Positions 6,298 to 25,672 are shown, counted from the first letter of the stretch. The stretch is 64,000 nucleotides of DNA from Haloferax litoreum (GCF_009674605.1 NZ_WKJO01000002.1:186001-250000), one strand, 5' to 3'. Notes: a model not told the origin generated them from the sequence alone. Made by a program: numbers and translations.

Positions 6298-6356
6298 CGC
6301 GTATCGAAACTGTGCCGAAGAGAGTCCCAATCTCACAACCAATCCGTGACGACGTT

Positions 6357-7586: not shown

Positions 7587-7745
7587 TGGTCAACGAATAT
7601 CACGAACCGATAAATTATTTATTGTTCTTACATTTTCAAGTGCCATACTATAAAACAGGAACCCGTCGCTGTCACCGACCTGCGCTCCCGAGATTCGTCC
7701 CTTTTCTTCGGAACGGTCGGCACGAGACGTGTTCGATACCCGACC

Positions 7746-8264: not shown

Positions 8265-8649
8265 GCGTGTATACCCTCAGCCACCCTTGAAAAAGTATCA
8301 CGTGTTTGTCTCGTGCTACCCTCGGACGTCTGTCGTACCACACCACTCGTTCACGACTGGTGTCTTGTGGGTCCCCCACCCGTCATATTTCGCCTCGGGT
8401 CTATCTGTACGATTCCGGAGTCAATTTTTACGGCGAAAATAATTCACCACCCGAGAAACTGTTAAGTGAATTTCCCGTCAACTTATTTTTGGAACGAAAA
8501 TCAGACCGTTGGCTGACATGCCATGGCCGGGACCAGTCCATCACCTCGATGACACCAGATAATGTGTCTATCGTGTGAACGGAAAATAGGGCGATAGGCG
8601 AGTCCCGTGGTCGTCAGACGATGGTTTTCGACCTGTACCCCTCGACATA
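8265..8649. other. intergenic region without a convincing gene
   Basis: This stretch separates the divergent secreted-protein and zinc-ribbon genes. It is AT-rich in its first two-thirds (about 8415-8500) and holds a short open frame on the plus strand that lacks coding character. The ATG of the zinc-ribbon gene follows directly at 8650. I see no tRNA, repeat or clear terminator. Confidence 0.45.
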
Positions 8650-8799
8650 ATGTATTCTTTCATCCCGAACCTTCGCCGATGGCTAACTTCCGAGGAGGTT
8701 CACGTCGAATGCCGCGACTGTGGAACCACACTCGAACCGGTAGACGAACCGTGTCCAGAGTGTGGTTCTCTCGAACGGTGCCGCTTCGAATTCGCGTAA
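8650..8799 (+). CDS. 49-residue zinc-ribbon protein
   Basis: A short gene with two CxxC pairs: CRDC at residues 21-24 and CPEC at 35-38, separated by [10 protein letters not shown], which is a complete treble-clef or zinc-ribbon knuckle. The sequence before it ([20 protein letters not shown]) is a short helix. A fifth cysteine lies near the C-terminus (ERCRFEFA). Such mini zinc ribbons are common in haloarchaea, and some act as regulators or as adaptors of membrane proteins. It ends only four bases before the UspA-type gene, so it is probably the first gene of an operon with UspA and the APC-UspA permease. The function is not known. Confidence 0.75.
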
Positions 8800-8803
8800 C
8801 ACC

Positions 8804-9259
8804 ATGACACAATCCTTCACAAAATCGATCGTCGTTCCGGTTGCAGACGAAGACGATGCTCGAGAGACAGCAACTGCGCTCGAACGCTACACTGTCGAGG
8901 ACGTTACCGTCCTCCACATTATAGAGAAGGGGGAAGGAGTCCCGGACAAGACACCCGTTGCTCAATCCGAAGAGACCGCAGCACGGTCTTTCGCCGCGTT
9001 TCACGAGAAGTTTCCCAACGCGAACACAGAGACCGTCTATCGGAGGGACGTGGTTTCGGGCATCATCGAGGTTGCTAGCGAGATAGATGCGAGTGCAATC
9101 GTGTTTCGACCCCGTGGAGGGGCACGCATCCTCCAGTTCCTCGCTGGCGACCGTTCGTTGCGGCTTATCACCGAATCCAAGCGGCCGGTGATTGCCCTGC
9201 CAGAGACTGACGGCGATGAAACCGGGGGAGGAGGAACGGACGATGCCGAGGTGATGTGA
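8804..9259 (+). CDS. universal stress protein (UspA family)
   Basis: A 151-residue protein with the Rossmann-like UspA fold: strand [17 protein letters not shown] at the N-terminus, [13 protein letters not shown] in the second strand, [20 protein letters not shown], and a final [15 protein letters not shown] strand. The usual ATP-binding motif (G-2x-G-9x-G-S/T) is poorly conserved ([20 protein letters not shown]), so nucleotide binding is uncertain. The ATG at 8804 is preferred to an in-frame start at 8762, because that lies inside the zinc-ribbon gene. The next gene begins directly after its stop (TGAATG), and its product carries two further UspA domains. The neighbour suggests regulation of an amino-acid permease. 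Confidence 0.88.
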
Positions 9260-11521
9260 ATGTCGTCTGGTGACGAAGAACTCGCGAAAGACCTTGGGTT
9301 GCTGTCAGCGCTGACTATCGGCGTTGGAACGATGATTGGAGCGGGGATTTTCGTCCTGCCCGGACAGGCGGCAGCAGCAGCAGGCCCCGCCGTTGCACTG
9401 TCGTTCGTCGTCGGCGGTATCATCTCGCTGTTCACTGCGCTTTCGGCGTCTGAACTCGGGACGGCGATGCCAAAGGCCGGTGGGAGTTACTACTACGTGA
9501 ACCACGCGTTGGGACCGTTGTTCGGTTCCGTCGCTGGGTGGGGAAACTGGATGGGGCTCGCGTTCGCCAGTGCATTCTACACGCTCGGGTTCGGCGAATA
9601 CCTCGCATCGTTTCTCCCCTTGCCCGCCCTTTCTTTGGGCCCACTCGGACTCACCCCGTTCCAGATAGGGGCGTTGCTGGCTGGTTCTGCGTTCATCGCA
9701 ATCAACTACATCGGGGCGAAAGAAACCGGTCGAATCCAAATCGTCATCGTCACCCTACTGGTTGGGATCCTGACCGTCTTCTCCCTTCTGGGGTTCTTGC
9801 AAGCGGACATCTCGACACTTCGACCGTTCTTCCCCGAAGAGACAGGTGGGACCGCTGCGGTACTCCCTGCGACTGGACTCGTCTTCGTATCGTTCCTCGG
9901 GTTCGCGAAGATTACCACCGTCGCTGAAGAACTGAAAAACCCCGGCCGGAACCTCCCCTTGGCCGTCGTCGGGAGCGTCCTCATCGTCACTGTCATGTAC
10001 GCGGTCATTATGGTCGTCCTGATGGGCGTCATCAACTGGCCCCAACTCGCACCAGAGTTCACAGACACCCCCGTCTTAGACGTCGCAGAGATTGCCTTTG
10101 GCACAATTGGTCTCGCCGGCGTCGGTGTCGCGCTTTTAACGTTCGCCGGCTTACTCGCGACAGCTTCGAGCGCGAACGCGAGCATCCTCGCATCGTCACG
10201 TATCAACTTCGCGATGGGTCGTGACAAACTCGTCTCGGATAAACTCAACGCGATTCACCCGAACTTCGCAACCCCGTACCGGAGCATCGCCGTCACTGGT
10301 GGACTCATCCTCTTGTTCATCGTCGTCGGCGACGTCAAGACGCTCGCAAAAGCCGGGAGTGTGCTTCACCTCATCGTCTACGGGATGCTCAACATCGCAC
10401 TCATCGTGATGCGACAAGCCGACGTCGACGAGTATCAACCAGATTTCGAAGTCCCACTCTATCCAGTCGTTCCGATTCTCGGAGCCGTGTCTTCGTTCGG
10501 GTTGATTGCGTTCATGGAACCGGTCGAAATCGCCCTCTCTGTCGTCTTCGTCGCGGGTGGTCTCGTGTGGTATCTGGCGTACGCCCGTGGGAAGACCACG
10601 AAACGGGGCATCTTGAGTCAGTACATCATCTCGCGGTCCGACGAGATGCCGTCAGCAGCGGTTTCGGCGGCGTCGACGGTCCAGCCAGATGGTGGTCAGT
10701 ACAAGGTGATGGTTCCACTCGCCAATCCACAACACGAACACGACCTGATTACCCTCGCGAGCGCCATCGCGAAACAACATGACGGATACGTCGAGGCAGT
10801 TCACATCGTGACAGTTCCCGACCAGACGGCGCTTCGATACGGCGCGGAACACCTCGACGAACTTGATGCTGAATCGATGACACTCCTCGAACAGGCGCGC
10901 GACGACGCAGAGACCCTCGGCGTCGACATCGAAACACACACAGTCGTCTCCCACCAGTCGTTCGAGGAGATATTCGACGTGGCGAAAGACCACGAAGCAG
11001 ACCTGGTCGTCATGGGGTGGGGCCCCGACTCACACGGTGCCCCGGGCCGAGCAGAGAGCGCACGAGACGAATTAACCGAGGACGTTCCATGTGATTTCAT
11101 CGTCCTCAGGGACCGTGGGTTCGACCCGAGTGATATCCTCGTCCCGACTGCCGGTGGTCCAGACTCGGACCTCTCTGCAGAGGTTGCGAAGCTCCTCCAA
11201 TCCACGTACGGTTCGAATGTGACACTGCTACACGTCGCGGAGACTGTCGAGGAGGGAGACTCGTTCCTCCGAGAGTGGGCCGAGACACACGGCTTGGAAG
11301 ATGCGACCCTTCAGGTCGAGACAGGAGACGTCGAGACGGCCATCGAACGAGCAGCAGCCGATAAGTCGATGGTTATCATCGGAGCGACAGAGCGTGGGTT
11401 GCTCTCCCGGTTGCTTCGAGGGACCATCGCAGAGAGCGTGGTCGACGACATCGACAGTTCGGTCTTACTCGCTGAACGTGCGAGGACCCGAAGTTTCATG
11501 GATAAACTGTTCAGTCGCTGA
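9260..11521 (+). CDS. APC-family amino-acid permease with two C-terminal UspA domains
   Basis: A 753-residue fusion. Residues 1 to about 450 are an APC-superfamily permease of about 12 helices with the characteristic start IGVGTMIGAGIFVLPGQAA and the ALSASELGTAMPKAGGSYYY signature of helices 2-3. Residues about 475-610 and 615-745 are two UspA-like domains (first KVMVPLANPQHEHDLI and VVMGWGPDSHG; second DILVPTAGGPDSDL and MVIIGATERGLLSRLLRG). Homologues import amino acids or other cationic solutes by ion symport; the UspA domains probably sense nucleotide on the cytoplasmic side and gate or modulate transport. The gene directly follows that of a stand-alone UspA protein. The domain order is typical of haloarchaea. 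Confidence 0.9.
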   Translation: MSSGDEELAKDLGLLSALTIGVGTMIGAGIFVLPGQAAAAAGPAVALSFVVGGIISLFTALSASELGTAMPKAGGSYYYVNHALGPLFGSVAGWGNWMGLAFASAFYTLGFGEYLASFLPLPALSLGPLGLTPFQIGALLAGSAFIAINYIGAKETGRIQIVIVTLLVGILTVFSLLGFLQADISTLRPFFPEETGGTAAVLPATGLVFVSFLGFAKITTVAEELKNPGRNLPLAVVGSVLIVTVMYAVIMVVLMGVINWPQLAPEFTDTPVLDVAEIAFGTIGLAGVGVALLTFAGLLATASSANASILASSRINFAMGRDKLVSDKLNAIHPNFATPYRSIAVTGGLILLFIVVGDVKTLAKAGSVLHLIVYGMLNIALIVMRQADVDEYQPDFEVPLYPVVPILGAVSSFGLIAFMEPVEIALSVVFVAGGLVWYLAYARGKTTKRGILSQYIISRSDEMPSAAVSAASTVQPDGGQYKVMVPLANPQHEHDLITLASAIAKQHDGYVEAVHIVTVPDQTALRYGAEHLDELDAESMTLLEQARDDAETLGVDIETHTVVSHQSFEEIFDVAKDHEADLVVMGWGPDSHGAPGRAESARDELTEDVPCDFIVLRDRGFDPSDILVPTAGGPDSDLSAEVAKLLQSTYGSNVTLLHVAETVEEGDSFLREWAETHGLEDATLQVETGDVETAIERAAADKSMVIIGATERGLLSRLLRGTIAESVVDDIDSSVLLAERARTRSFMDKLFSR

Positions 11522-11556
11522 ACGCAGGCCCAAACTGGCCCTGCCGCGTGTCTCTA

Positions 11557-13332
11557 CTACCCGTCCCGGTTCGCGAGTGACCCTGGGTCGACGGATTCGT
11601 AGTCGACGATGGCGTCGAAGTACGCCAGCGCAAGCGCGTCGCCGTCGATTATACCTCGTCCGTCTGGTTCTCGGAGCGTCGTTTGGACGAAGTGCGTAGC
11701 CACGAGCACTGCTCTCGCGTCACCAGATTCGTCGAGGTCGCGTTGTGCGTTCGACACCAAGAGACTCGCAGTGAGCACGTCGAAGACGTACTCAGCGAGT
11801 CGCTTCGCCTCGTGTTGAGCGTAGTCGTCGTCTGCGTCTGCGAGTGTCTCGATTGCGGTTTGAAGCGTGGTGAACTCCTCGGCGACGACAGAAGCGAGTT
11901 CGTCGAGGGCAGGGTGGTCGACAGAAGAGAGGAGTGCGTCGACGTGGGACACGAGAGCCTCGTGGGCCGCTTCTTTCTCGAACGTCCGAAGCAGGTCGAG
12001 CGAGAGGATGTTCGAGGTCCCTTCCCATATCGGAAGCACCTGCGCGTCGCGGTACAGTCTGTGGGTGACGAAGTCGCTGACGTAGCCGTTTCCACCCTGA
12101 ATCTCCATCGCGTAGGAGGCAGTATCGACCGCCATCCGTGCGGTTCGGTACTTCGCAATCGGTGTCAACACGCGCATCAACCGATATGCGTCGCGGTTTT
12201 CGTGGTCACGCTCGTACCGGTCGAACCATTTTCCGGCCTCCATCGCAAACACGAGTGCCGCCTCGAAGTCGACTGCCATGTCGACGAGGTCACGCTTCAC
12301 GAGCGGATACTCTCGAATTGCGTTGCCGAAGGCCTCGCGGTTCGTTGCTTTACGTTTGCTCTCGACGAGTGAGCGACCCATAATCCCGACAGCACCGACG
12401 GCGTTCGTGATACGCTCCCAGTTGAGCATCGTCGCCATGTACCTGAACCCTCGTTCGGGTTCGCCGACGAGATACGCCTCGGCGCCTCGGAACTCGACTT
12501 CACCGGTCGGCACGCTAATCGTCCCGAGTTTGTCTTTCAACCGGCGATACAGTTGGTCGTTGAGTATTCCATCTTCTGTCTCGTGTGGGACGAGAAACAA
12601 CGAGAGTCCGTTCGTCCCCTCCGGGGCGTCAGGTCGGCGTGCGAGCGCGAGTGTGCCATCTGCATCGATATTGCTACAGAACCACTTCTCCCCCGTCAGT
12701 TCGTACCGTCTGGACGGGTCGTCAGCGCTATCGAGTGACTCTGCGACGGTTTCTATCGCCCCCACGTCGCTTCCCCCCTGTTCTTCAGTGAGAAACATCG
12801 CGCCCTCGATGAGTGATTCGTACGAACGCGTCGTGAGTGCGGAATAGTAGTCGTCGAGATGGCCTTCAGTATCGTGATTCCGCAAGACGAGTGCTGCCCC
12901 AGCAGTCATGGAAACCGGACAGACGAGGCCGGTGTCGACGTACGAGAGCAACAGTTGCATCGTCAACGTGTGAATGAGTCCGACTGGTTCGTCACGGTCC
13001 GACGGGGGAGTAAACGCGTCAGCGACGATACCAGACTCGTAGACCAGACGTTCGTTCTCTCTCTGTGCAGGGTGATACTCGACTTCGTTTTGCACCTCAC
13101 CGTATGCATCGTAGGTGTGCAATTTCGGTCCGTGGTCGTCCACGACGTCAGAATTCTCACTGACGACCGTTCCGACGAGTTCACCGAACTGGTCGAGTTG
13201 GCTCTTCGCCCACTCGAATTCACCGTTCGGATACACTCGGCGGGCCGTCGCTCGAAGCGGAGGCGTACAGCGCCAGTAGTTGGTGTCTTGCCCATTTTCG
13301 TGTTCTCCACTCGGAGACCCGTCGTTCGACAT
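11557..13332 (-). CDS. AidB-like acyl-CoA dehydrogenase
   Basis: A 591-residue flavoprotein similar to the large AidB/acyl-CoA dehydrogenase branch: substrate and FAD motif LTEEQGGSDVGAIET, GEKWFCSNIDADGTLALARR, and IQGGNGYVSDFVTHRLYRDA followed by QVLPIWEGTSNI. It probably oxidises an acyl-CoA (or serves a damaged-DNA-type role as AidB does); the exact substrate is unknown. The length is longer than classic 380-residue dehydrogenases, with an extra N-terminal domain. The gene is divergent from the HyuAB-type cluster, so both could share an intergenic control region. The ATG at 13332 lies about 28 bases after a TTTACAC-like box. Confidence 0.88.
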   Translation of the reverse strand: MSNDGSPSGEHENGQDTNYWRCTPPLRATARRVYPNGEFEWAKSQLDQFGELVGTVVSENSDVVDDHGPKLHTYDAYGEVQNEVEYHPAQRENERLVYESGIVADAFTPPSDRDEPVGLIHTLTMQLLLSYVDTGLVCPVSMTAGAALVLRNHDTEGHLDDYYSALTTRSYESLIEGAMFLTEEQGGSDVGAIETVAESLDSADDPSRRYELTGEKWFCSNIDADGTLALARRPDAPEGTNGLSLFLVPHETEDGILNDQLYRRLKDKLGTISVPTGEVEFRGAEAYLVGEPERGFRYMATMLNWERITNAVGAVGIMGRSLVESKRKATNREAFGNAIREYPLVKRDLVDMAVDFEAALVFAMEAGKWFDRYERDHENRDAYRLMRVLTPIAKYRTARMAVDTASYAMEIQGGNGYVSDFVTHRLYRDAQVLPIWEGTSNILSLDLLRTFEKEAAHEALVSHVDALLSSVDHPALDELASVVAEEFTTLQTAIETLADADDDYAQHEAKRLAEYVFDVLTASLLVSNAQRDLDESGDARAVLVATHFVQTTLREPDGRGIIDGDALALAYFDAIVDYESVDPGSLANRDG

Positions 13333-13483
13333 ATGTCACCGAACAGCATCGATTCGTGTAAAGTCAGTGGTTGTTTCGGTGGGAATCGATTAGCGACATC
13401 CTCACCCGTTCAAGCCAGATATGGGCTGTTTCCATGATATTCTGGATTTATTGATGGTCAAAAGCAAATGAACGAACGTTATG

Positions 13484-13494
13484 ATTTATTTAAA
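13484..13494 (+). promoter_or_regulatory. TATA box of the HyuAB cluster
   Basis: The sequence ATTTATTTAAA is a strong archaeal TATA-like element. A transcription start near 13515 would give about 40 bases of 5' UTR before the ATG of hyuA. It is followed at once by a 14-bp palindrome. Confidence 0.5.
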
Positions 13495-13497
13495 GAG

Positions 13498-13511
13498 CCC
13501 ACAGCTGTGGG
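13498..13511. promoter_or_regulatory. 14-bp palindromic operator candidate
   Basis: CCCACAGCTGTGGG is a perfect inverted repeat (seven bases each side) directly after the TATA box and before the predicted start site of the hyuA transcript. A dimeric regulator bound here would block initiation. Candidate regulators in the window are the Lrp-type proteins at 21378 and 50046; the HTH-10 protein at 20717 is usually an activator. Confidence 0.5.
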
Positions 13512-13556
13512 GAGAACTCTTAGCAATATCGCAAGTATCTTGTTGGTTGTTAACGC

Positions 13557-15620
13557 ATGACTCAAAACTTAGGTGTCGACGTTGGCGGCACGTTCACGGA
13601 CGTCATCGTATTCGACGATGAGACACACGAATTAACCATCGACAAGGTGCTTTCGACACCAGCCAATCCGTCTGAGGGTGTCCTCACGGGGATAACCGAG
13701 GCGACACAAAAGGCCGGAACGTCTGTCGCGGAACTCTCCTTGCTGTTTCACGGAACGACGGTCGTAACGAACATGCTCTTAGAGGAGACCGGTTCGCGTG
13801 TCGGCCTCATCACGACCACCGGTCACGAGGACATCCTCCACTTGGCACGAGCGTGGACACCCGGTCCACTCTATGGTTGGATGGGGATGGAAAAACCGGA
13901 CCCACTCGCGGACTTGACCGACACACGAGGTGTTTCAGGGCGAATTTCCTCACCCGATGGAACCGAAATCGAACCGCTCGACGAAACAGAGATTCGACAA
14001 AAGGTGCAAGAACTGTACGAAACTGGAATCGAGTCGTTGACCATCGCACTTCTCAACTCGTATCTGAATCCCGCACACGAACAGCGAATTCGTGACATCG
14101 TCACCGAGGAGTATCCAGACCTTCCGGTCTCGATTTCCTCGGAAATCGTCCCCGAGTACGGAGAGTACGAACGAACGCTAACGACGGTCATCAACGACTA
14201 CGCACGTCCAACAGTCATCTCGTATCTTGACGGGTTGGACGCGTCGCTGCAAGATGCCGGGTCTTCGGCGACGATGAACGTCGTCCGTTCGGACGGCGGC
14301 CTGATGAGTTCAGCGGCCGCGAAACAGCGTCCAGTCGACCTCGCGCTGTCTGGTCCGTCGGGGGGAGTCGTTGGAGCGGCGACGATTGCGAGCAAAAAGG
14401 GCGTTCCGGACGTACTCACGCTCGACATGGGTGGGACGTCGACAGACGTCTCGCTCGTCGAAGACGGGACACCCGAGTCGACACGTGAGACGAAAGTCGG
14501 CTATCGCGAGTTCAAGTCTCGCGGCGTCGACGTCAACACAGTCGGTGCTGGCGGTGGGTCGATCGCCCGTGTCCAACTCTCTGGGGCGCTTCAAGTTGGG
14601 CCAGAAAGTTCCGGGGCAGACCCCGGCCCAGCGTGTTACGGCCGCGGCGGAACCGAACCAACGGTGACCGACGCGAACGTCGTCCTCGGTCGAATCCCAC
14701 CGTCTGTCCAACTCGGTGGACGAATGGAACTCGACCGAGAGGCGGCCCGTGAAGCCATCTCGACTATCGCGGAAGAACGGGGCACGTCTATCGAAGAAGC
14801 CGCACAGGCAATCGTCGACATCGTCAACGAGAACATGCACGGCGCACTGCGCGTCGTGTCTGTCGAACGTGGGTACGACCCGCGTGAGTTCGGACTCGTC
14901 GCCTTCGGCGGGGCCGGACCAATGCACGCGAACGCGCTCGCCGACGTCATGGACACCTACCCGCTTGTTATCCCTCCGGGACCTGGTGTGATGAGTGCCT
15001 TCGGGTTCCTGACGAGCGATATCCAAAACGAATTCTCCGAGACGTACCTCCAGACCGACCGAGATGTGAGTGGCGAGGACGTCGCCGAGACACTCGAAGC
15101 CATCCGTTCAGAGGCTTCGGAGTGGCTCGAGTCAGAAGGCGTCCACAGCGACGACCACTCGTTCGAGTACTTCGCAGACTGTCGGTACTACCGACAGGAC
15201 ATCCAGATGTCGATTCCGATCGATGTCGACAATCTCCAACACGAGAAGGGGCTCGCAGAGATAAAAGACGACTTCGAGTCACGCCACGAACATCGATTCG
15301 GCTTTTCACTGGATGCACCGCTCGAAATCGCGAACCTTCGCGTCGTTGGCCGTGGAGAAATCGAGGGCGTACAGTTGGTCACCAGAGAACTCGGCGACGA
15401 AGACGCGAGTCACGCCCAAACAGGCACCCACGAGGTGTTTTTCGACGACGAGTATCACGAGACACCAATCTACGACCGAACTGACCTCCGACCGGGCAAC
15501 CAGCTGGACGGTCCGGCGATTATCGTCGAGGACGACTCGACCATCGTCGTCCAACCGAACCACGAAGCACGAATCGACGAATACGAGAACATCGAGATAA
15601 CCCGAGGTGAAACCCAATGA
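13557..15620 (+). CDS. hyuA: hydantoinase/oxoprolinase family subunit A (HyuA-like)
   Basis: A 687-residue protein of the HyuA/oxoprolinase N-terminal family, with the ATP-binding actin-like motif LGVDVGGTFTDVIVFDDE at residues 5-22 and a second conserved region VLTLDMGGTSTDVSLVEDGT near 285-305. It has the LLFHGTTVVTNMLLEETGS and GAGGGSIAR motifs of this family. The family performs ATP-dependent opening of cyclic amides (N-methylhydantoin, 5-oxoproline, caprolactam) or ATP-dependent carboxylation (acetone and acetophenone carboxylases), so the reaction here is uncertain. Its stop overlaps the start of the HyuB-like gene by four bases (ATGA), as expected for subunits of one enzyme. Confidence 0.85.
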   Translation: MTQNLGVDVGGTFTDVIVFDDETHELTIDKVLSTPANPSEGVLTGITEATQKAGTSVAELSLLFHGTTVVTNMLLEETGSRVGLITTTGHEDILHLARAWTPGPLYGWMGMEKPDPLADLTDTRGVSGRISSPDGTEIEPLDETEIRQKVQELYETGIESLTIALLNSYLNPAHEQRIRDIVTEEYPDLPVSISSEIVPEYGEYERTLTTVINDYARPTVISYLDGLDASLQDAGSSATMNVVRSDGGLMSSAAAKQRPVDLALSGPSGGVVGAATIASKKGVPDVLTLDMGGTSTDVSLVEDGTPESTRETKVGYREFKSRGVDVNTVGAGGGSIARVQLSGALQVGPESSGADPGPACYGRGGTEPTVTDANVVLGRIPPSVQLGGRMELDREAAREAISTIAEERGTSIEEAAQAIVDIVNENMHGALRVVSVERGYDPREFGLVAFGGAGPMHANALADVMDTYPLVIPPGPGVMSAFGFLTSDIQNEFSETYLQTDRDVSGEDVAETLEAIRSEASEWLESEGVHSDDHSFEYFADCRYYRQDIQMSIPIDVDNLQHEKGLAEIKDDFESRHEHRFGFSLDAPLEIANLRVVGRGEIEGVQLVTRELGDEDASHAQTGTHEVFFDDEYHETPIYDRTDLRPGNQLDGPAIIVEDDSTIVVQPNHEARIDEYENIEITRGETQ

Positions 15621-17473
15621 GCACAAGCGAAACACCAGAGTTCGTCGGTGAGCACGACGTCGACGCGACGACGCTCGACATCATAGAAAGTACGTTATCG
15701 AACGCCCGCTACGAGATGGACCGTGTCCTCGAGACGACGGCGATTAGCCCCGTCATTCGAGAGCAATCAGACCAATTCCCACTCATCGCCGACGCGAAAG
15801 GACGGATGGTCATGGGACAGTTCGGGAGTGCAATCGATACGATAATCGAGAACTCATCGTTCGACTGGGATGACCTCGAAGAGGGAGACGTCATCGCGAC
15901 GAACGACCCCTACATGTGTGCCGGTGCACTGTCCCACACACCGGACATGCTGCTACTTCGCCCCATCTTCTACGACGGCCACCTGGTCGGCTTTTCGAGC
16001 CAGTGGGGCAACCTGATGGACGTCGGCGGAAAGACACCGGGGAGTATGCCGGTGACGGCGCGGACGATTTTCGAAGAGGGTGTCAGACTTCCACCCGTCA
16101 AGCTCTACAAGAAGGGTACACTCGATGCGGAACTCCTCGAAACCTTCGCGCACAACACCCGACTTCCGGAACACGCCGAAGCAGACATCAAGGCACTCGC
16201 CGCCGGAACGAAAGCGGCTGAGACTCGTGTGCAGGAACTCTGTGACCGCTTCGGACGAGAGACGTACGTCGAAGCGACTGACGCCATCTTGGACCGCACG
16301 CGGGACGGGATGATAAACCTGATTCGGGAGTTCATCCCAGAGGGTGAGCGGTACACCTTCGAAGACTACGTCGACGACGATGGGCTCGGTAATGGGCCGA
16401 TAAAACTCCACCTCGAAATCTACCGCGAGGGGGATACAGTCTACCTCGATTGGGAGGGAACCGACGACCAAGTACCGGGGACGGTCAACTTCCTCCTCAA
16501 CGAGAAGATGTTCAAGATGTTCGTCGGTGTGTTCCTCATCATGGCGTTTGACCCGCTGTTGACGTTCAACGACGGGTACTACGACCTCTTCGAGGTGAAC
16601 CTCCCCAAAGGAAGCGTCATCCAACCTGAGTTCCCCGCGGCACTCGGGAATCGCCTCCCACTCATGGCCCGGCAGTTCGACGTCCTGCAGGCGACGTTCT
16701 CGAAACTCATCGATGGGTTCAGCGTCGCTGGGAGTTACGGCACGTCCCCCAACTTGGTGTACGCCGGAGTGGACTCGGACGGAAACCCCTTCCAGATGCT
16801 CGAAATTCTGTACGGGGGAATCCCCGCGAGGCCGGGTGGCGACGGACTCGACGGTCATTCGTGGTGGCCGCTCTTTCGGACCGTCCCAGCAGAGTATCAG
16901 GAAGCCTACTACCCACTGACTATCAGCGAGTACAGTACGCGGCAAGACACTGGTGGACCCGGTGAGTTCCGTGGCGGCCACGGGATTAGCAAAGTCTACA
17001 CGTTCGAAGAAGACGGTTCGATTACCTTCCAAGACGACCGAGCGCACACCTACCCGTGGGGTGTCGATGGGGGAAAACACGGGAAGACGAGCGAGAAGAT
17101 TCTCATCCGAACGGACGGGTCCGAAGAGCACATCCCATCGAAAGCAGAGAACGTCACCGTCAGCGCAGGCGACAAACTCGTCTTCAGGACCGCCGCCGGT
17201 GGAGGACTCGGAGACCCATTGGACCGTGACCCTGCTGTCGTAGAGACCGAAGTCAGGCGAGGACTCGTCTCCGAATCGGCCGCCCGCGATGAGTATGGGG
17301 TTGTTCTCGGTGACGACGGCAGCGTCGATGCCTCGGCTACCGAATCCAAACGAGAGGAGATTCGGACACGACGAGACGACCTGCAGGAATTCGATTATGG
17401 GCCACTACCCGACTACGACGAACTGGCCCAACAAATCGCCGCCGAGCGCAGAGAGTTCGACGACCGTGATTGA
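15617..17473 (+). CDS. hyuB: hydantoinase/oxoprolinase family subunit B (HyuB-like)
   Basis: A 618-residue protein of the HyuB family: N-terminal STLSNARYEMDRVLETTAIS segment, GDVIATNDPYMCAGALSHTP, the GNLMDVGGKTPGSMPVTA motif and the C-terminal GPGEFRGGHGISKVYTFEED and TAAGGGLGDPLDRDP regions. The length matches family members (about 550-620). It is the partner of the HyuA-like gene with an ATGA overlap. It is followed by an isochorismatase-fold hydrolase, which is a common companion when the HyuAB product is an N-carbamoyl or amide compound. Confidence 0.88.
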   Translation: MSTSETPEFVGEHDVDATTLDIIESTLSNARYEMDRVLETTAISPVIREQSDQFPLIADAKGRMVMGQFGSAIDTIIENSSFDWDDLEEGDVIATNDPYMCAGALSHTPDMLLLRPIFYDGHLVGFSSQWGNLMDVGGKTPGSMPVTARTIFEEGVRLPPVKLYKKGTLDAELLETFAHNTRLPEHAEADIKALAAGTKAAETRVQELCDRFGRETYVEATDAILDRTRDGMINLIREFIPEGERYTFEDYVDDDGLGNGPIKLHLEIYREGDTVYLDWEGTDDQVPGTVNFLLNEKMFKMFVGVFLIMAFDPLLTFNDGYYDLFEVNLPKGSVIQPEFPAALGNRLPLMARQFDVLQATFSKLIDGFSVAGSYGTSPNLVYAGVDSDGNPFQMLEILYGGIPARPGGDGLDGHSWWPLFRTVPAEYQEAYYPLTISEYSTRQDTGGPGEFRGGHGISKVYTFEEDGSITFQDDRAHTYPWGVDGGKHGKTSEKILIRTDGSEEHIPSKAENVTVSAGDKLVFRTAAGGGLGDPLDRDPAVVETEVRRGLVSESAARDEYGVVLGDDGSVDASATESKREEIRTRRDDLQEFDYGPLPDYDELAQQIAAERREFDDRD

Positions 17474-17521
17474 ACGGCGTCGACAACACACCCAACCCAC
17501 GACATCCCCTCGAAGACCCCC

Positions 17522-18184
17522 ATGACAGACTGGATCGACGAAACCGAAGCGACGTACACCGAACGGGAGTTCGGAAAAGACGTTGGATTCGGGAATCGGC
17601 CCGCGTTGGTCGTCATCGATTTAATCAACGCGTTCACCGACCCCGAGTCGAACCTCGGCATGGATGCAACGCCCGTGTTGGAAGCGACAACACGACTGCT
17701 GGAGGCATTCCGTCGGTACGACCTTCCGCGATATTTCACCACTGTTGCGTTCGAGGAGTCGTACGGGGACGCGGGATTGTTCATCGAGAAAGTGCCCGCA
17801 CTCAAGGAACTGCGTCTCGGTACAGACCGCGTTTCCGTCGACGACCAACTCGCGCCACGCAACGACGAGCGCGTCGTTCTCAAAAAATACGCGAGCGCGT
17901 TCTTCGGAACAGACCTCCAGACCGAACTGACTACGAACAGCGTCGATACACTCGTCCTCGCGGGCGTGACGACCAGCGGATGCGTTCGTGCAACTGCGGT
18001 CGATAGCTTACAACACGGATACCGAACGATAGTACCAGCAGACGCTGTCGGTGACCGAGCCGACGGCCCGCACGAAGCGAACCTGTTCGATATCGACGCG
18101 AAGTACGGCGACGTCGTGACTACCGATGCGGTCGTCGCTCATCTGGACGAATCCTTCGGCAACTCGGCTAGCGGTACTCCCTAA
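17522..18184 (+). CDS. isochorismatase-family amidohydrolase (N-carbamoylsarcosine amidase-like)
   Basis: A 220-residue protein of the cysteine-hydrolase (isochorismatase) superfamily. Catalytic triad candidates are Asp33 in LVVIDLINAF, Lys121 or Lys122 in VVLKKYASAFFGT, and Cys154 in VTTSGCVRATA. The length and motif spacing fit N-carbamoylsarcosine amidohydrolase, ureidoacrylate hydrolase (RutB) and maleamate amidase rather than the shorter nicotinamidases. It probably hydrolyses an amide or ureido group of the product made by the HyuAB-like enzyme. It lies about 50 bases after hyuB in the same direction. Confidence 0.85.
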   Translation: MTDWIDETEATYTEREFGKDVGFGNRPALVVIDLINAFTDPESNLGMDATPVLEATTRLLEAFRRYDLPRYFTTVAFEESYGDAGLFIEKVPALKELRLGTDRVSVDDQLAPRNDERVVLKKYASAFFGTDLQTELTTNSVDTLVLAGVTTSGCVRATAVDSLQHGYRTIVPADAVGDRADGPHEANLFDIDAKYGDVVTTDAVVAHLDESFGNSASGTP

Positions 18185-18267
18185 ATTATGCGTACAACAC
18201 GCCACTCACTACACAGTAGAATCGTTCACTCGTCGTCTCCTGAGACTCACGGGGGATTGGATACCCG

Positions 18268-19485
18268 ATGACTGCCCGGAGTCGACACGGACCACTCGAC
18301 GGACTTCGGGTCATCGACATGTCAGGGATGATAAGCGGAGCGTTCGCAACGACGATGCTCGGAGATTTCGGTGCCGACGTCGTCATGGTCGAACACCCCA
18401 AAGTCGGCGACCCAATCCGAGAGTGGCCACAGAAGACCCCCGATGGAACGTCGCTTTCGTGGAAGTCGTTGGGACGCAACAAACGCTGTGTCACGCTCGA
18501 CCTCGGGAGTGACCGCGGGCGAGAGATTGCGCTCACGCTCATCGCAGAGGCAGACCTCGTCTTCGAAAATTTCCGTCCAGGGACGATGGAACGCTGGGGC
18601 CTCGGTCCCGACGACATTCACGAAGTCAACGAGCGAGCGATTATGGTTCGCCTTTCTGGCTACGGCCAAACTGGACCCAAATCGCACAAACCGGGGTTCG
18701 GAACGATTGCTGAAGGTATCTCGGGGTGGGCACACGCGAACGGGTTCCCGGACCGAGAACCGCTCTTGCCACCCATCAGTCTCGCGGACCTCACCGCGGC
18801 CCAGTTCGCGCTTCAATCCTCACTGATGGCGCTGTTCGAACGCGATATCGGCCGGGGAGGAAGTGGGAAGGGGCAAGTCATCGATGTCTCACTCACGGAA
18901 CCACTGTGGAGATTGTTCTTCGGTGAGGTCGAAGCGTACGACAGACAAGAACACATCCGCGAACGGACGGGAAATCGCCATCCAAACACTGCTCCTCGGA
19001 ACATCTACGAGACGGCAGATGGGTACATGACGATGTCAGCGTCGAATCAGAAGATATTCGAGCGGGTCGCACACGCCATCGATAAGCCGGAACTCATCGA
19101 CGACGACCGGTTCGAGACGAACGCCACGCGTGTCGAACACGCCGACGTACTGGATGCGGAGATAGAGACCTGGACTAAACAGCGTTCGACCGCAGAAGCC
19201 ATCGAGATTCTCGAAGAAAACGACGCTATCGTCGGCCCAGTATACGATATGGCCGATATCTTCGCCGACGAGCAGTTCCGATCTCGGGAAGCGATCATCG
19301 AAGTCGAAGACACCGACATCGGGGCAACGAAGACGTTCGCGCCGGTTCCACGGTTCTCACGAACGCCGGGAGAAGTCGAATTCCTCGGTCCCAAGCATGG
19401 TGAGCACAATACGGAAGTCTACATGGGTGAACTCGGGTTTTCTGAAGAGGAACTGGAGACACTCGAAGCGGATGGTGTCATCTGA
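18268..19485 (+). CDS. class III (CaiB/BaiF-like) CoA transferase
   Basis: A 405-residue family III CoA transferase. It has the N-terminal DGLRVIDMSGMISGAFATTM motif, the GDFGADVVMVEHPKVGDPIR segment, KRCVTLDLGSDRGREIALTL, and a catalytic Asp174 in ISLADLTAAQ (family III enzymes use an Asp to form the aspartyl-CoA anhydride). It moves CoA from a donor such as succinyl-CoA to an unknown carboxylic acid. The gene lies between the isochorismatase-fold hydrolase and the DRE-TIM enzyme and immediately abuts the latter, so the acid it activates is likely the product of the amidase step. Confidence 0.9.
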   Translation: MTARSRHGPLDGLRVIDMSGMISGAFATTMLGDFGADVVMVEHPKVGDPIREWPQKTPDGTSLSWKSLGRNKRCVTLDLGSDRGREIALTLIAEADLVFENFRPGTMERWGLGPDDIHEVNERAIMVRLSGYGQTGPKSHKPGFGTIAEGISGWAHANGFPDREPLLPPISLADLTAAQFALQSSLMALFERDIGRGGSGKGQVIDVSLTEPLWRLFFGEVEAYDRQEHIRERTGNRHPNTAPRNIYETADGYMTMSASNQKIFERVAHAIDKPELIDDDRFETNATRVEHADVLDAEIETWTKQRSTAEAIEILEENDAIVGPVYDMADIFADEQFRSREAIIEVEDTDIGATKTFAPVPRFSRTPGEVEFLGPKHGEHNTEVYMGELGFSEEELETLEADGVI

Positions 19486-20583
19486 ATGGAGCTCAGCGAC
19501 GTCACCCTTCGTGAGGGCGACCAAATGCCCGGTCGTGAGTTCACCACGGAACAGAAGATTCAGGCCGTTCGCGAACTGGACGACCTCGGTGTTCCGTATA
19601 TTCAGCCAGTCTTCCCTGTGACCGGGGAGAAAGACCGAACCGTCTTAGCTGAACTCGCTGGAACGACCGACGCGGAGATTATCGCGCTCGCTCGGGCGTT
19701 ATCGAGTGACATCGAACTCGCTCTCGATGGCGGCGCGGACATCGTCGAGGTATTCCTCTCAGTGTCTGACCGACATCTCGAACACCTACTCGGGAAGTCT
19801 CGAAGAGAGATGGAGACGATGCTCGTCGATGCCGTCGACTACGTCACCGACCACGGGGGCATCCCGCACGTCACACTCGCGGACGCCTTTCGAACGGACG
19901 TCAACGACCTCGTCCGTATCTTCGAGTTACTCACCGACCCACCGGTCGTCACCCTCGCCGATTCAGTCGGTGTACGAACGCCCAGCAGCACGCGACACTT
20001 CCTCAAAGAACTCGAATCGAACGGTGTCAACCTCGGGCGCGTCGGGGTACACTTCCACGACGATTTGGGGTGTGCGACAGCGAACGCACTGACTGCCTAC
20101 GAGATGGGGGTCGCGAAGGCTGATGCGAGTATCGCTGGACTCGGCGAGCGAGCGGGTAACAGCGTCCTCGAAGAAGTAATCGCGGCCTGTGCTGTCGACT
20201 TCGACGATTCCCTCGGCATCCACGAAGAAGCGCTCGTACCGACGTGTCGGCGCGTGCTCGAGACCGTCGACGAGTCGTACGACGAGCGAAAGGCCGTCCT
20301 CGGGTCGAAAACTGCCGAGCACGAATCAGGCATCCACACCGCGGCGATGTTATCAGACCCGGCAACGCTCGAACCGTTTGACCCAACACGGTTCGGTGGG
20401 GAACGACAACTGTGGTTCGGCGCTCCGACAGGAACGGGTGCTGCGAGGTGGCTCCTCGAACGGGCGGGCGTTGCGGCGGACAAAAACACAGTGGCAGCGT
20501 ATCTCGATGCACTGGCCGAGCGAGGTCCGCTCAACCTCGACGATGCACTCCAACTAGCCACACACCAGTTTGGAGAGAGTTAG
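19486..20583 (+). CDS. DRE-TIM metallolyase/synthase (homocitrate synthase or HMG-CoA lyase-like)
   Basis: A 365-residue TIM-barrel enzyme of the DRE-TIM superfamily. The N-terminal motif is TLREGDQMPG (a Glu in place of the Asp usual in the TLRDG motif), and the metal-binding GVHFHDDLGCATANALTAYE appears at about residues 187-206, followed by GLGERAGNSVLEE. The last 90 residues hold an EHESGIHTAAML segment, which resembles the His-containing communication loop of homocitrate/isopropylmalate synthases and lacks the large regulatory domain. The likely reaction is an aldol condensation or cleavage of a CoA ester or 2-oxoacid. It starts directly after the CoA transferase stop (TGAATG). Confidence 0.85.
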   Translation: MELSDVTLREGDQMPGREFTTEQKIQAVRELDDLGVPYIQPVFPVTGEKDRTVLAELAGTTDAEIIALARALSSDIELALDGGADIVEVFLSVSDRHLEHLLGKSRREMETMLVDAVDYVTDHGGIPHVTLADAFRTDVNDLVRIFELLTDPPVVTLADSVGVRTPSSTRHFLKELESNGVNLGRVGVHFHDDLGCATANALTAYEMGVAKADASIAGLGERAGNSVLEEVIAACAVDFDDSLGIHEEALVPTCRRVLETVDESYDERKAVLGSKTAEHESGIHTAAMLSDPATLEPFDPTRFGGERQLWFGAPTGTGAARWLLERAGVAADKNTVAAYLDALAERGPLNLDDALQLATHQFGES

Positions 20584-20716
20584 TCAGACCGTCTCTGTCC
20601 AACAGGGATGACGCTCACCGGACATCATCTACTCTGTTTTTCGAACCACTCAGGGAGTGGAAGCCAACGGTGCAGATTCATTATCGTTGGTGTGCATTGG
20701 TGGCATACGACATGAC

Positions 20717-21361
20717 ATGTTCGAAGCAGAGATTCACCTCCAACAACACAAACGGTGCATCCTAACCGACGTCGCGTCTGAATTTGACGCCTCGTTCGAG
20801 ATCGCCATTGAGGAACTCCACAACCACCAAGTGACGTTCGTTATCGAGTTCGAAGAGACCACGGAGGCCATCTTCGAGTTCATGCGAGACTCTTCACAGG
20901 TTAGTCACATCGAGCGAATGTCCTCGAACAAATATCTCGTCACGAAACAATCGTGTGGTGCGTACGATGCCATCGACCGAAATCACGGAATCATCAGACG
21001 CCGGAGTCGGATATCACCCGAACGCCGTGTCTACAGCGTACTGTTGTTCCGACGCGAGGACCTTCGGGCGATGATAGAGGAGTTCAAACGTATCGGTAAC
21101 CCAACACTCGGGTCGATTAAACAGTTCGAGGCACCGTCGTCACAACTTACCACTCGGCAGCGAGAAGTCATCCAACTCGCGTTGAACCACGGCTACTTCG
21201 ATTGGCCTCGAAAACACACTGCAGAGGAGGTGGCGCAGGAATTGAATATCGACCATTCGACGTTCCTCGAACATATCCGAAAAGCACAACGGAAACTGCT
21301 CTCGAAAGCACTCTCAGACGAACGAGAGTCGACCAGCCTTCCGCAGTTCACTGAATCGTGA
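20717..21361 (+). CDS. HTH-10 (bacterio-opsin activator-like) transcription regulator
   Basis: A 214-residue protein with a C-terminal HTH-10 domain (TTRQREVIQLALNHGYFDWP, ending TAEEVAQELNIDHSTFLEHI), the hallmark of the Bat family of haloarchaeal activators. The N-terminal part has no PAS or GAF domain but resembles the sensory domain of small Bat-like proteins. It follows the CoA transferase and DRE-TIM genes on the same strand and is a candidate activator of that cluster. The ATG at 20717 (MFEAEIHLQQH) is preferred to an in-frame ATG at 20657, because the latter would add a non-conserved extension. Confidence 0.85.
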   Translation: MFEAEIHLQQHKRCILTDVASEFDASFEIAIEELHNHQVTFVIEFEETTEAIFEFMRDSSQVSHIERMSSNKYLVTKQSCGAYDAIDRNHGIIRRRSRISPERRVYSVLLFRREDLRAMIEEFKRIGNPTLGSIKQFEAPSSQLTTRQREVIQLALNHGYFDWPRKHTAEEVAQELNIDHSTFLEHIRKAQRKLLSKALSDERESTSLPQFTES

Positions 21362-21377: not shown

Positions 21378-21842
21378 TCACTCGGGGTCGAACTCCGAGA
21401 ACGGGCGTCTCACATCTCGCTGGATGAGGTCCTCGTCAGAGACTCGAAGTCCGAGGTCACTTAGTTCGCGGGCGATTCGTGCGAGGTCGGTCGAATCGGT
21501 TCCGATGGCTGTCACCAAGACGTTGTTCTCCCCAGTGGCGAGTTCGCGTACACCAACGACACCTGCCACGTCGAGCGCATCGGTACAGAGGCCCCTTCGA
21601 ACAGGAATCTCCGCGGTACACTCCATCTGCATGAAGAGTTGATAGCCGGCTTTCTTGTAGTCGACCGTCGCGTGGTATCCGGTGATGATTCCCTCAGATT
21701 CGAGTCGCTGGATGCGTTTTCGGACCGTGCTCGGTGATGCGTCCACTTGCTCGGCGATATCTCGTGACGAGACGTGTCTCGCGTCTCGCTGGAGTTCGTG
21801 GAGAATCCGTCTGTCGAGTTCGTCGAGTCCCTTGAGAGTCAT
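21378..21842 (-). CDS. Lrp/AsnC-family regulator
   Basis: A 154-residue Lrp/AsnC-type protein: N-terminal winged-helix with LDELDRRILHELQRDARHVS and SSRDIAEQVDASPSTVRKRI, followed by a RAM-like ligand domain (GYHATVDYKKAGYQLFMQME). Lrp-type regulators sense amino acids and bind palindromic sites. It converges on the HTH-10 gene. The start at 21842 (MTLKGLDEL) has a GAGGTG ribosome site five bases upstream, so it is preferred to the GTG at 21863. Confidence 0.88.
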   Translation of the reverse strand: MTLKGLDELDRRILHELQRDARHVSSRDIAEQVDASPSTVRKRIQRLESEGIITGYHATVDYKKAGYQLFMQMECTAEIPVRRGLCTDALDVAGVVGVRELATGENNVLVTAIGTDSTDLARIARELSDLGLRVSDEDLIQRDVRRPFSEFDPE

Positions 21843-21948
21843 GGTCGCACCTCGGGACGGCACACGGAATTCGTTGTGGTTCGTATCGAAGCGTGCGTCT
21901 GTTTGCGACCCACCTCACCACGAACTTCGAACGGCGTCTTCGGCGCGT

Positions 21949-22376: not shown

Positions 22377-24056
22377 TTACGAGGCGAGGAGAACGACACT
22401 CAGTGCGACTCCCACCGTTGCGAAGAGGAAGACGAGTGCCGACTGGATAGTGTCGTTCAGTCGCGGGTCGGCCCCGACGAGCGAGGCGAACCGTTCGATG
22501 AGCGATGCAGAAGCGTGGTTCGCTGCGTTGCCGATGGCAATCGCACCGACAGAGAGTGCTGTCGTCCCCCGAACAGCGAGTGGATAGAGGACTCGGTCGA
22601 CGTCGGCGAGGTGTATCTGAGCGAGTCGCGTTCGGAACGCGACGAACCCGAGCGTACCAACGATGAGGACGGCACCGGCTTTGACGAGTTCACTCGTCGC
22701 GTACGCGTCGAATCCACCAGAATCGCCGGGCATGGGGCCGAGGAGTGTCTCTGGGAAGACGCCGAAGACGACCGACGGGATGGCGATAGCAATCAGCACA
22801 ACTCGGAGAGTGAGGCTGGTGGGCCGCACGTCGATGTCGTCCGGGGCGGCACGGACGAACGCGTAGTAGCCGAACTTGGCGAACGAGAGCACAGTTCCGA
22901 CACTGCCGACGACGAGCATCCACCACAGTGCCGTCTCACCCGTGCTCTCGACGGCCTTCGTGATGAGGCCTTTACTGACGAACCCAGCGAAGCCCGGTGC
23001 TCCCGTGATGGCGAGTGCGGCGACGAGGAACGTCACGAACGTCACGGGCATCACGCGGGCGAGTCCTCCGAGGTATTTGAGTGACTTCTTTCCAGTCCGG
23101 TAGACGATGACACCGGCGACCATGAACAACAAGCCCTTGTAGAGGACGTGTGCCACGAGGTGCGCAAACGCACCGGACAGGCCGGCAGCAGTGCCGATTC
23201 CGAGCGCGACGACCATGTACCCCACCTGCGAGATGATGTGGTACGACAGGAGGCGTCGCATATCGGTCTGGAAGATGGCCTGAGTGACCCCGTAGACGAT
23301 CATGATGCCACCAACCCACGCGACGAGGATGGCTCCGTCAGGCGCGACTCGGGCGAGTACCACGACGGCGACTTTCGTCGTGAAGGCCGCGAGGACGACG
23401 CTCGCTGCGACGTGCGGCCGGGGGTAGGTCTCTGGTAGCCAGAAGTGGAGGCCGATGAAGCCGAGGTTGACGCCGACACCGACGAGTGCCAGCGTTCTCG
23501 GCAGTCCTCCCGTGAGGCCACCGTCATAGACGAACGACCCGGTCGTCGCGAAGTGGAACGCGATGCCGGCGACGAGGAACGCACCACCGATGAGGTGGTA
23601 AATCGCGTACCTGAACGCGGGTCGAACGGCGTCACCACCGTGGTGCCAGACGAGGACCGTCGCGGTCACGGCGAGGAGTTCCCAACTGATGAGGAGGGTC
23701 AGCCAGTCTCCTGCGGTCACTGCGGCGACGCCGGCACCCATGTACGCCAGCGAGTAGAGTTGTTGGCGCGAGTCGGCGTCGGTGGCGTAGCCGTAGACCA
23801 GGTTGATAGCGGCGACGAAGCCGAAGAGCATCGCCACCGGGCGGGAGAACCCGTCGACAGTGAGAAGCACCTGTTCGAATCCGAGCGGTGAGACCACGAG
23901 GTACGACCCAGCGTCGATGGCCCACATCCACGGAATGGTGAGAGCCACGAGGAGGGCCCCGACGACCGTCCCGATGAGTCGTGGTGCGACGAGTACGACG
24001 AGTATCGCGAGGAGGAACGCAATCCACGGCGGGGCGAGCGTCACGAACTCGGTCAT
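22377..24056 (-). CDS. mnhD: Mrp-type antiporter subunit D (third copy)
   Basis: A 559-residue proton-conducting membrane protein of the NuoL/M/N-MrpA/D family. About 14 helices, with the helix-5 glutamate in LISWELLAVTATVLVWHHGG and a lysine-containing helix segment (GAFAHLVAHVLYKGLLFMVA). The start at 24056 (MTEFVTLAPP) is used because it overlaps the stop of the previous gene as ATGA; a longer in-frame opening to 24206 lies within that gene. It is the third D-type gene in this operon and its C-terminus has extra helices. Subunits of this family probably carry the protons exchanged for Na+. Confidence 0.88.
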   Translation of the reverse strand: MTEFVTLAPPWIAFLLAILVVLVAPRLIGTVVGALLVALTIPWMWAIDAGSYLVVSPLGFEQVLLTVDGFSRPVAMLFGFVAAINLVYGYATDADSRQQLYSLAYMGAGVAAVTAGDWLTLLISWELLAVTATVLVWHHGGDAVRPAFRYAIYHLIGGAFLVAGIAFHFATTGSFVYDGGLTGGLPRTLALVGVGVNLGFIGLHFWLPETYPRPHVAASVVLAAFTTKVAVVVLARVAPDGAILVAWVGGIMIVYGVTQAIFQTDMRRLLSYHIISQVGYMVVALGIGTAAGLSGAFAHLVAHVLYKGLLFMVAGVIVYRTGKKSLKYLGGLARVMPVTFVTFLVAALAITGAPGFAGFVSKGLITKAVESTGETALWWMLVVGSVGTVLSFAKFGYYAFVRAAPDDIDVRPTSLTLRVVLIAIAIPSVVFGVFPETLLGPMPGDSGGFDAYATSELVKAGAVLIVGTLGFVAFRTRLAQIHLADVDRVLYPLAVRGTTALSVGAIAIGNAANHASASLIERFASLVGADPRLNDTIQSALVFLFATVGVALSVVLLAS

Positions 24057-25672
24057 CCGAACACCTCCGCGACCACTGTCTCGGCGAGGTCCCAGAACGG
24101 AAGGTACCCCGGGACGACGCCGAGGACGACGGCGACTCCGACGGTGACGAGAATCGGGACCAGCATGAGTGGCGTCGTCTCGGTCGACACCGTTCGGCGT
24201 TCCCACCCGACGTGTCCGAGTCGGTTGGTCACGTCACCACCATCGGTCGCGTGGGGGCTCTTCGATGCGGTGCCGCTTCCGACAGCGTGCGAACTGTCGG
24301 CGGCGTGCGCTGGCGCGAAGGCGTGCTGACTCGCGGGGGTCGAACCGTCACGCTGGCCGAAGAACGCGGCGTAGACGATAGGCCAGAAGTAGAGGAGTTT
24401 CAGTAATCCGGCCACGAGGTAGGCAGCGACGAACACCGGAGCAGGGCCCTCTGCGACGCCGACGACGAGCGTGAACTTGCTAACGAACCCCGCGACGAAC
24501 GGGAATCCAACGAGCCCTGCGGCCGCAATCGCGAACACAGTCATCGTGACCGGAAGCCGACGCCCGACGCCGGCGAGGTCCGAGACGTACTTTTCGCCCG
24601 TCTCGACGGCGACGATACCCGCGACGAAGAACAGGGTAATCTTCATGAACGCGTGGGCGACGATGTGGAGGAGTGCACCGAACACCGCGAGTGGCGTCGC
24701 AATCGCGAGTCCTAACACGATGTACGAGAGTTGCGAGATGGTCGAGTACGCGAGGCCACGCTTGAGGTTGTCCTGCCGAATACCGACGAGTCCCGCGACG
24801 ACCATCGTCACCGCCGCAACCACGGCAAGCGGGAGGCCCATGCCGAGGTCCCACGTCGTCTCCGGCCCGAAGACGTAGAGGACGGTCCGAGAGAGCGCGA
24901 AGACACCACTCTTGACGACTGCGACAGCGTGGAGGAGTCCCGAGACGGGCGTCGGTGCGACCATCGCCGTCGGGAGCCACTCGTAGAGTGGGACGAGTGC
25001 CGCTTTGACCCCGAACCCGACGGCGAGGAGGATAAACGCGACCTGAGCCAGCGTCGAGTCCGTCGCGGCGAGTTCGGAGATTCCACCCGGAACGAACGTG
25101 AGCGTCCCAGCGAGAACCGCGACGAGGAGGATTCCCGCGAACGCGACGACGCCGCCACCGAGTGTGTACACGATGTACGTGCGCCCGGCCGCGCGTGCCG
25201 TTTTCGTTCCGGCGTGGACGACGAGTGGGTACGTTGCCAGCGTCAGGAGTTCGTAGAAGACGAACAGCGTCAGCAGATTCGCCGCGAGTGCGACACCCAT
25301 GGTCGCGGCGATGCTCCCGGCGAACGCTGCGAAGAACCGGGTCTGGTCGTGTTCTTCGAGGCTACGGACGTAGCCGACGCTGTAGACGCTCGTCACGGTC
25401 CACAACGTCGATGCGAGCAGTGCGAACAGCAGTCCAGCCGCGTCTCCCCGCAGTGCGAGTTCGATACCGGCGATAGACCCAAGTGAGGACACGTGGGTAA
25501 CTGGCCACCAAATCATCGCAGCGACGACGGCGAGCGTCCCGAGTGCGCTCAGGAACGTCCACCCCTCACGAAGCGCCGGGTTCGACCGCGACGCGTAGAT
25601 GAGTGGAATCGCAACTGCGGGGATGGCGACCGCAGCGAGTGGCAGGAGGGAAATGACGTCGGTCACAGCCAT
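24053..25672 (-). CDS. mnhD: Mrp-type antiporter subunit D (second copy, with insertion)
   Basis: A 539-residue member of the NuoL/MrpA/D family: helix-5 glutamate in LFVFYELLTLATYPLVVHAG, a lysine in ALVPLYEWLPTAMVAPTPVS neighbourhood and KRGLAYSTISQLSYIVLGLA in the helix-8/9 region. A Ser/Ala/His-rich cytoplasmic insertion (ASQHAFAPAHAADSSHAVGS) lies near the C-terminus before the last helix. The start at 25672 (MAVTDVISLLP) overlaps the upstream D gene by ten bases; an alternative start at 25696 is possible. The gene ends with an ATGA overlap to the third D gene. Confidence 0.87.
   Translation of the reverse strand: MAVTDVISLLPLAAVAIPAVAIPLIYASRSNPALREGWTFLSALGTLAVVAAMIWWPVTHVSSLGSIAGIELALRGDAAGLLFALLASTLWTVTSVYSVGYVRSLEEHDQTRFFAAFAGSIAATMGVALAANLLTLFVFYELLTLATYPLVVHAGTKTARAAGRTYIVYTLGGGVVAFAGILLVAVLAGTLTFVPGGISELAATDSTLAQVAFILLAVGFGVKAALVPLYEWLPTAMVAPTPVSGLLHAVAVVKSGVFALSRTVLYVFGPETTWDLGMGLPLAVVAAVTMVVAGLVGIRQDNLKRGLAYSTISQLSYIVLGLAIATPLAVFGALLHIVAHAFMKITLFFVAGIVAVETGEKYVSDLAGVGRRLPVTMTVFAIAAAGLVGFPFVAGFVSKFTLVVGVAEGPAPVFVAAYLVAGLLKLLYFWPIVYAAFFGQRDGSTPASQHAFAPAHAADSSHAVGSGTASKSPHATDGGDVTNRLGHVGWERRTVSTETTPLMLVPILVTVGVAVVLGVVPGYLPFWDLAETVVAEVFG

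Follow-up and report, generated by a model that had tools for sequence, protein, structure and literature searches.

Which compound is degraded, if any, by a haloarchaeal operon that joins a hydantoinase-like enzyme and an amidase to a CoA-transferase and a relative of LeuA? This question is raised by a locus of Haloferax litoreum lying within the window, by which we mean the whole 64,000-nucleotide stretch that was analysed. Our comparison found that the gene set is conserved, that CoA-transferase and LeuA-like genes are absent together where a lyase gene of the ICL/PEPM family is present, and that catalytic residues are kept in most of the enzymes. With enzyme functions predicted from protein families and gene context, we give an even chance to the reading that the operon is catabolic and serves to break down a cyclic amide, with a cyclic imide of the maleimide/succinimide type as the likeliest substrate, and that the LeuA-like protein cleaves in the retro-Claisen direction.

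The operon and its conserved members

Six collinear genes occupy positions 13,557 to 21,361 on the plus strand, and open reading frames and Pfam matches agree with the first-pass annotation on the named genes and their places. HyuA (13,557–15,620; Hydant_A_N, Hydantoinase_A and Hydant_A_C) is the predicted ATP-binding subunit of an ATP-dependent cyclic-amide hydrolase, and HyuB (15,617–17,473; Hydantoinase_B) its predicted metal-site subunit. They are followed by Iso, an isochorismatase-fold amidase (17,522–18,184; Isochorismatase), the class III CoA-transferase CaiB (18,268–19,485; CoA_transf_3), a LeuA-like DRE-TIM protein (19,486–20,583; HMGL-like and HCS_D2), which we propose as a CoA-dependent lyase, and a putative HTH_10 regulator (20,657–21,361; HTH_10), which is included for its co-conservation and probably regulates the operon. 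The intergenic distances are −4, 48, 83, 0 and 73 bp in this order, so that the HyuA and HyuB frames share 4 bp, the LeuA-like start directly abuts the CaiB stop, and HTH_10 lies a little further on. A TATA-box-like motif, TTTATTTAAAG, which may function in transcription of the operon, is located at 13,485–13,495 (plus strand), some 60 bp in front of HyuA; this is its sole exact occurrence in the window, and it did not appear in 100 shuffles. Scans for sigma-70 promoters and terminators, both ill-suited to archaea, yielded nothing above shuffled sequence. The window is part of a 322-kb contig in a genome of 3.56 Mb and three contigs.

Orthologues of HyuB with 76–89% identity are present in 40 of 382 haloarchaeal genomes and in 20 genera, frequencies that apply to this sample, which was drawn evenly from the class. 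Conservation of gene order had been set beforehand as the test that could overturn the proposal, and the unit is retained in all 40 genomes: HyuA, Iso and HTH_10 are found near the orthologous HyuB in every one. In several haloarchaeal families, CaiB, HyuAB, Iso and HTH_10 have beside them a relative of the LeuA-like protein (about 55–71% identity). In one genome (G322, C1:3033000-3052500) HyuA and HyuB each match as two separate pieces, as if broken.

The operon is flanked by an acyl-CoA dehydrogenase of the AidB_N type (11,557–13,332, minus strand) and an Lrp/AsnC protein (21,378–21,863, minus strand). In the other haloarchaeal cluster regions the dehydrogenase has no counterpart except one weak match and the Lrp protein none at all, and both were rejected as members of the unit. 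The oxidation step of the first-pass annotation is thus not supported, and of the two regulators that it had listed HTH_10 belongs to the unit while Lrp does not. Beyond the dehydrogenase, at 8762–11,521, lie a universal stress protein and an amino-acid permease with C-terminal Usp domains; downstream of the operon, two Proton_antipo_M proteins of the Mrp/NADH-quinone-oxidoreductase type are encoded at 22,377–25,696 (minus strand).

Predicted activities of the enzymes

HyuA and HyuB are adjacent subunits whose Pfam domains are matched over their full length, as is characteristic of the ATP-dependent lactamase family, and the best PDB match of HyuA is N-methylhydantoinase (7hk5, 471 bits). In the caprolactamase CapAB the ATP-site residues and metal ligands are essential, and replacement of CapB His124 by Ala inactivates the enzyme (PMC8453981). 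The ATP-site residues D11 and D295 of CapA correspond to Asp8 and Asp290 of HyuA and are conserved also in its relatives. Aligned to CapB (6yra_B), HyuB retains the metal ligands D41, H99 and D102 as Asp52, His107 and Asp110, as do all 52 sequences compared. The fourth ligand, H124, is not kept. The window HyuB has Asn132 at this position, and Asn is present in 43 of the 52 sequences, comprising every haloarchaeal HyuB examined and Rubrobacter; the nine bacterial relatives that remain have His, and an alignment places Gln there in N-methylhydantoinase 7hk5. The Asn counts against the reading of a catabolic operon for a cyclic amide.

Iso most closely resembles 26st and 1nba (N-carbamoylsarcosine amidohydrolase) in the PDB, and its triad Asp33-Lys121-Cys154 is invariant in 53 of 53 sequences. 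Judged by sequence, Iso is an amidase of the N-carbamoylsarcosine/maleamate type, since triad and closest similarity both fit this group.

A parallel cluster on another contig of the same genome (C3:224000-243900, locus positions 3314–13806) encodes an FAD-binding protein, an LLM-class oxidoreductase, a second Iso (Iso2), a member of the dihydropyrimidinase family (dihydropyrimidinase/D-hydantoinase), CaiB2, an HMG-CoA-lyase-like protein (HMGL2), LeuC-like and LeuD-like proteins and an MFS transporter. This cluster appears to repeat the logic of the window operon with a ring-opening enzyme family that is independent of ATP. Orthologues of HMGL2 occur in 40 of the 382 genomes, and most of the 20 haloarchaeal regions sampled preserve the gene order. 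Both clusters are found together in 10 genomes compared to 4.2 expected (Fisher p = 0.004, uncorrected for kinship). At two loci (L197 and L203) an ICL/PEPM-family gene lies beside a cluster of this parallel type.

Since the nearest relatives of HyuAB and Iso are N-methylhydantoinase and N-carbamoylsarcosine amidase, these enzymes would suit hydantoins and imides alike. In a hydantoin or ureide route HyuAB would act as a hydantoinase that depends on ATP, and Iso would be the N-carbamoyl amidase, releasing an amino acid, CO2 and ammonia, while CaiB and the LeuA-like protein would handle the deaminated skeleton or belong to another pathway. The D-hydantoinase-family protein of the parallel cluster also speaks for this route, but dihydropyrimidinases act on imides too. 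Moreover, the clusters compared show no conserved gene for an aminotransferase or an amine-oxidising enzyme in the unit, and HyuAB is always accompanied by the lyase part in either of its two versions, which is not what one would expect of a part with a role in another pathway. We regard the hydantoin route as unlikely, although it is the strongest of the alternatives.

For the second half of the operon, the closest PDB entry to CaiB is succinate-hydroxymethylglutarate CoA-transferase (9br6). Asp174, which from knowledge of class III CoA-transferases we take to be the catalytic residue, is invariant in 36 of 36 sequences, and by similarity CaiB is predicted to be a class III CoA-transferase of the dicarboxylate type. 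With the LeuA-like protein, none of the NCBIfam models for LeuA, homocitrate, citramalate or HMG-CoA lyase reaches its curated cut-off; the best synthase score is 252 bits where 517 are required, the other synthase models being likewise below theirs, and the HMG-CoA lyase model gives 55.5 bits against 246. The protein retains the synthase metal-site residues and the HESGIH motif. The active-site Glu of the synthases, in the (A/C)ED motif, is replaced by Ala, Val, Ile, Leu or Met in the LeuA-like family. We rejected this loss as proof of a lyase, since a further LeuA-family protein encoded in this genome lacks the Glu as well. At the position of TtHCS His72 the protein has Leu, as do isopropylmalate synthases, and at that of Arg133 it has His; with both reference positions taken from what is known of the family, these residues do not single out one 2-oxoacid. 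An AlphaFold model of mean pLDDT 72, built from eight sequences and of low pLDDT at residues 217–243 and 278–309, matches homocitrate and isopropylmalate synthases, and it confirms the fold only.

Two versions of the lyase part

CaiB and the LeuA-like gene are present in 21 of the 40 haloarchaeal clusters, including the window; in one of these genomes (G192) HyuAB-Iso begins about 4 kb beyond CaiB-LeuA-HTH_10. The other 19 clusters carry an ICL/PEPM-family gene directly after Iso and lack the LeuA-like gene as well as, within the searched distance, CaiB. The replacing gene encodes the C–C lyase motif K[KR]CGH at all 25 loci, two of which are duplicate records, and among PDB entries its product is closest to 2,3-dimethylmalate lyase. 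On annotated plasmids the ICL/PEPM version was found in Natronorubrum aibiense, Natronomonas pharaonis and Halorientalis marina, the last being a further record with the same arrangement as the 19, while Haladaptatus sp. YSMS36 has the CaiB and LeuA-like version. In H. marina an acetamidase/formamidase-family gene (L085, 14764–16068) directly follows the ICL/PEPM gene, and in N. pharaonis PL131 a formamidase gene (L084, 21338–21659) lies further along from it.

ICL/PEPM-family lyases cut free 2-hydroxyacids with a beta-carboxylate (malate type) into a 2-oxoacid and an acid and do not need a CoA-transferase, whereas an HMG-CoA lyase or a LeuA-type enzyme working in reverse requires a CoA ester. 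Functional equivalence of the two lyases therefore predicts that CaiB and the LeuA-like gene are absent together where the ICL/PEPM gene is present. In the tree of HyuA and HyuB the basal haloarchaeal rows carry CaiB and the LeuA-like gene, which suggests that the DRE-TIM version is the older state. The ICL/PEPM state would then have arisen at least twice in haloarchaea and once more in Novosphingobium, three swaps in all, in a tree made by a quick method in which several inner forks are weak and the bacterial rows form long branches.

Further clusters come from bacteria of the same HyuA clade, at about 50% identity. The order in Geobacillus is Iso-HyuA-HyuB-CaiB-HMG-CoA lyase, with leuC and leuD close by, and Acidiphilium, Novosphingobium capsulatum and N. 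sp. PP1Y combine an HMG-CoA-lyase-like gene with CaiB, HyuAB and Iso. Novosphingobium humi, RL4 and THN1 carry an ICL/PEPM gene after HyuB, and RL4 and THN1 have an additional HMG-CoA-lyase-like gene at greater distance. Rubrobacter has CaiB-HyuA-HyuB-Iso and no adjacent lyase.

These replacements bear on the possibility that the LeuA-like protein is a synthase which condenses acetyl-CoA with a 2-oxoacid from ring breakdown for assimilation, while CaiB recycles or activates another acid. Membership of the LeuA/homocitrate synthase family with an HCS_D2 domain, the retained metal site and HESGIH favour a synthase; the last two features and the lack of LeuCD in the operon weigh against an imide route with a lyase. 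However, the protein is missing together with CaiB wherever the ICL/PEPM lyase is present, HMG-CoA-lyase-like proteins take its place in bacteria, all synthase-model scores fall below their cut-offs, and the synthase active-site Glu is replaced, all of which makes a synthase improbable in our estimation. Most improbable is a role of HyuAB in the ATP-dependent carboxylation of a ketone or a similar compound, as in acetone and acetophenone carboxylases, with CaiB forming the CoA ester of the oxoacid; the first-pass annotation had allowed for carboxylation. HyuAB shares a superfamily with these carboxylases, but matches their subunits more weakly than hydrolases, the conserved clusters hold no carboxylase-type Hyu subunit beyond the HyuA/HyuB pair, and the amidase is always in the unit.

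CaiB and LeuA-like pairs also occur without HyuAB, which marks the pair as a separable module, and its substrate could be one that is shared with other routes. LeuCD-type genes adjoin the pair in Natronorubrum daqingense and two other genomes and are also located beside the Geobacillus and THN1 clusters, while TctABC accompanies other pairs; these neighbours point to a di- or tricarboxylic acid as substrate of the lyase. The window operon itself contains no LeuCD gene, and LeuCD-type genes are present elsewhere in the same genome. Pairs without HyuAB were seen beside TctABC, beside a sodium:solute symporter, or beside LeuCD-like genes with an NMT1/SsuA-type ABC transporter. Some 60 kb from the operon, the contig has a second pair (C2:135000-154500), which includes a LeuA-like protein of 47% identity and lies with an ABC transporter (solute-binding protein, permeases and ATPase) and an HTH_10-type gene; it has relatives in the same genus.

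A proposed route and its relation to known systems

The order of ring opening, amide removal, CoA addition and C–C cleavage, as first proposed, fits the gene content of the operon and of its variants. In the cyclic-imide route HyuAB would open the ring at the cost of ATP to give a primary amide, which Iso would hydrolyse to ammonia and a dicarboxylic acid. If this acid is unsaturated, a LeuCD/aconitase-type hydratase, encoded not in the window operon but in several related clusters and elsewhere in the genome, could convert it to a malate-type hydroxyacid. CaiB would then form the CoA thioester, and the LeuA-like protein may split it by a retro-Claisen reaction into acetyl-CoA (or another acyl-CoA) and a 2-oxoacid, as in the formation of pyruvate from citramalyl-CoA. 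Citramalate is the simplest candidate for the hydroxyacid; citrate and other 2-alkylmalates would also fit. As ring substrates we considered hydantoins, glutaconimides of the citrazinate type, and the alkylmaleimides, citraconimide among them, that arise when tetrapyrroles are broken down.

We tentatively propose, at somewhat less than even confidence, an undescribed catabolic pathway in haloarchaea and some bacteria, whose substrate is a cyclic imide or a cyclic amide related to it and in which a synthase-type enzyme and a CoA-transferase act as a CoA-dependent lyase that was exchanged about three times with a CoA-free ICL/PEPM lyase. A literature search on hydantoinases with isochorismatases and haloarchaea, HMG-CoA lyase or isopropylmalate, and on citrazinate, maleimide and dimethylmaleate routes, gave no published account of this gene set within its partial coverage, mostly without subscription papers. 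If the proposal is true, it adds a nitrogen-heterocycle degradation route for haloarchaea and for bacteria such as Geobacillus and Novosphingobium, and gives a function to pairs of CaiB and 'citramalate synthase' that public records now annotate as biosynthetic. The natural exchange between CoA-dependent and CoA-free lyases would plainly exemplify non-orthologous replacement, and it allows the class of substrate to be tested with a small number of purified proteins.

Among known systems, CapAB and other ATP-dependent lactamases (5-oxoprolinases, hydantoinases) share the HyuA/HyuB architecture, the ATP-site Asp and three of the four metal ligands, and IaaCE is named as a member of this family (PMC8453981). 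However, at the position of the fourth ligand, His124, the window HyuB has Asn, and the pathway context is far from caprolactam degradation. Degradation of creatinine via N-methylhydantoin supplies the closest solved relatives of HyuAB and Iso, N-methylhydantoinase and N-carbamoylsarcosine amidase; the window operon has no sarcosine-handling gene and instead a CoA-transferase and a C–C lyase.

In anaerobic indoleacetate degradation, lactam opening by the hydantoinase-like hydrolase IaaCE precedes CaiB-type CoA transfer to a succinate-type acid, and the order of chemistry is the one proposed here; that pathway is not known to include an Iso amidase or a cleavage of the LeuA or HMG-CoA-lyase type. 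Nicotinate fermentation ends with the aconitase-family dimethylmaleate hydratase and the ICL/PEPM-family 2,3-dimethylmalate lyase, which acts on an alkylmalate. These steps resemble the ICL/PEPM version and the LeuCD-type neighbours described above, but entry here is via HyuAB and Iso, and a CoA-dependent DRE-TIM version exists. With citramalate, isopropylmalate and homocitrate synthases the LeuA-like protein has family and fold in common, while it differs in the cleaving role proposed for it with CaiB, in scores below the curated cut-offs and in the changed active-site Glu.
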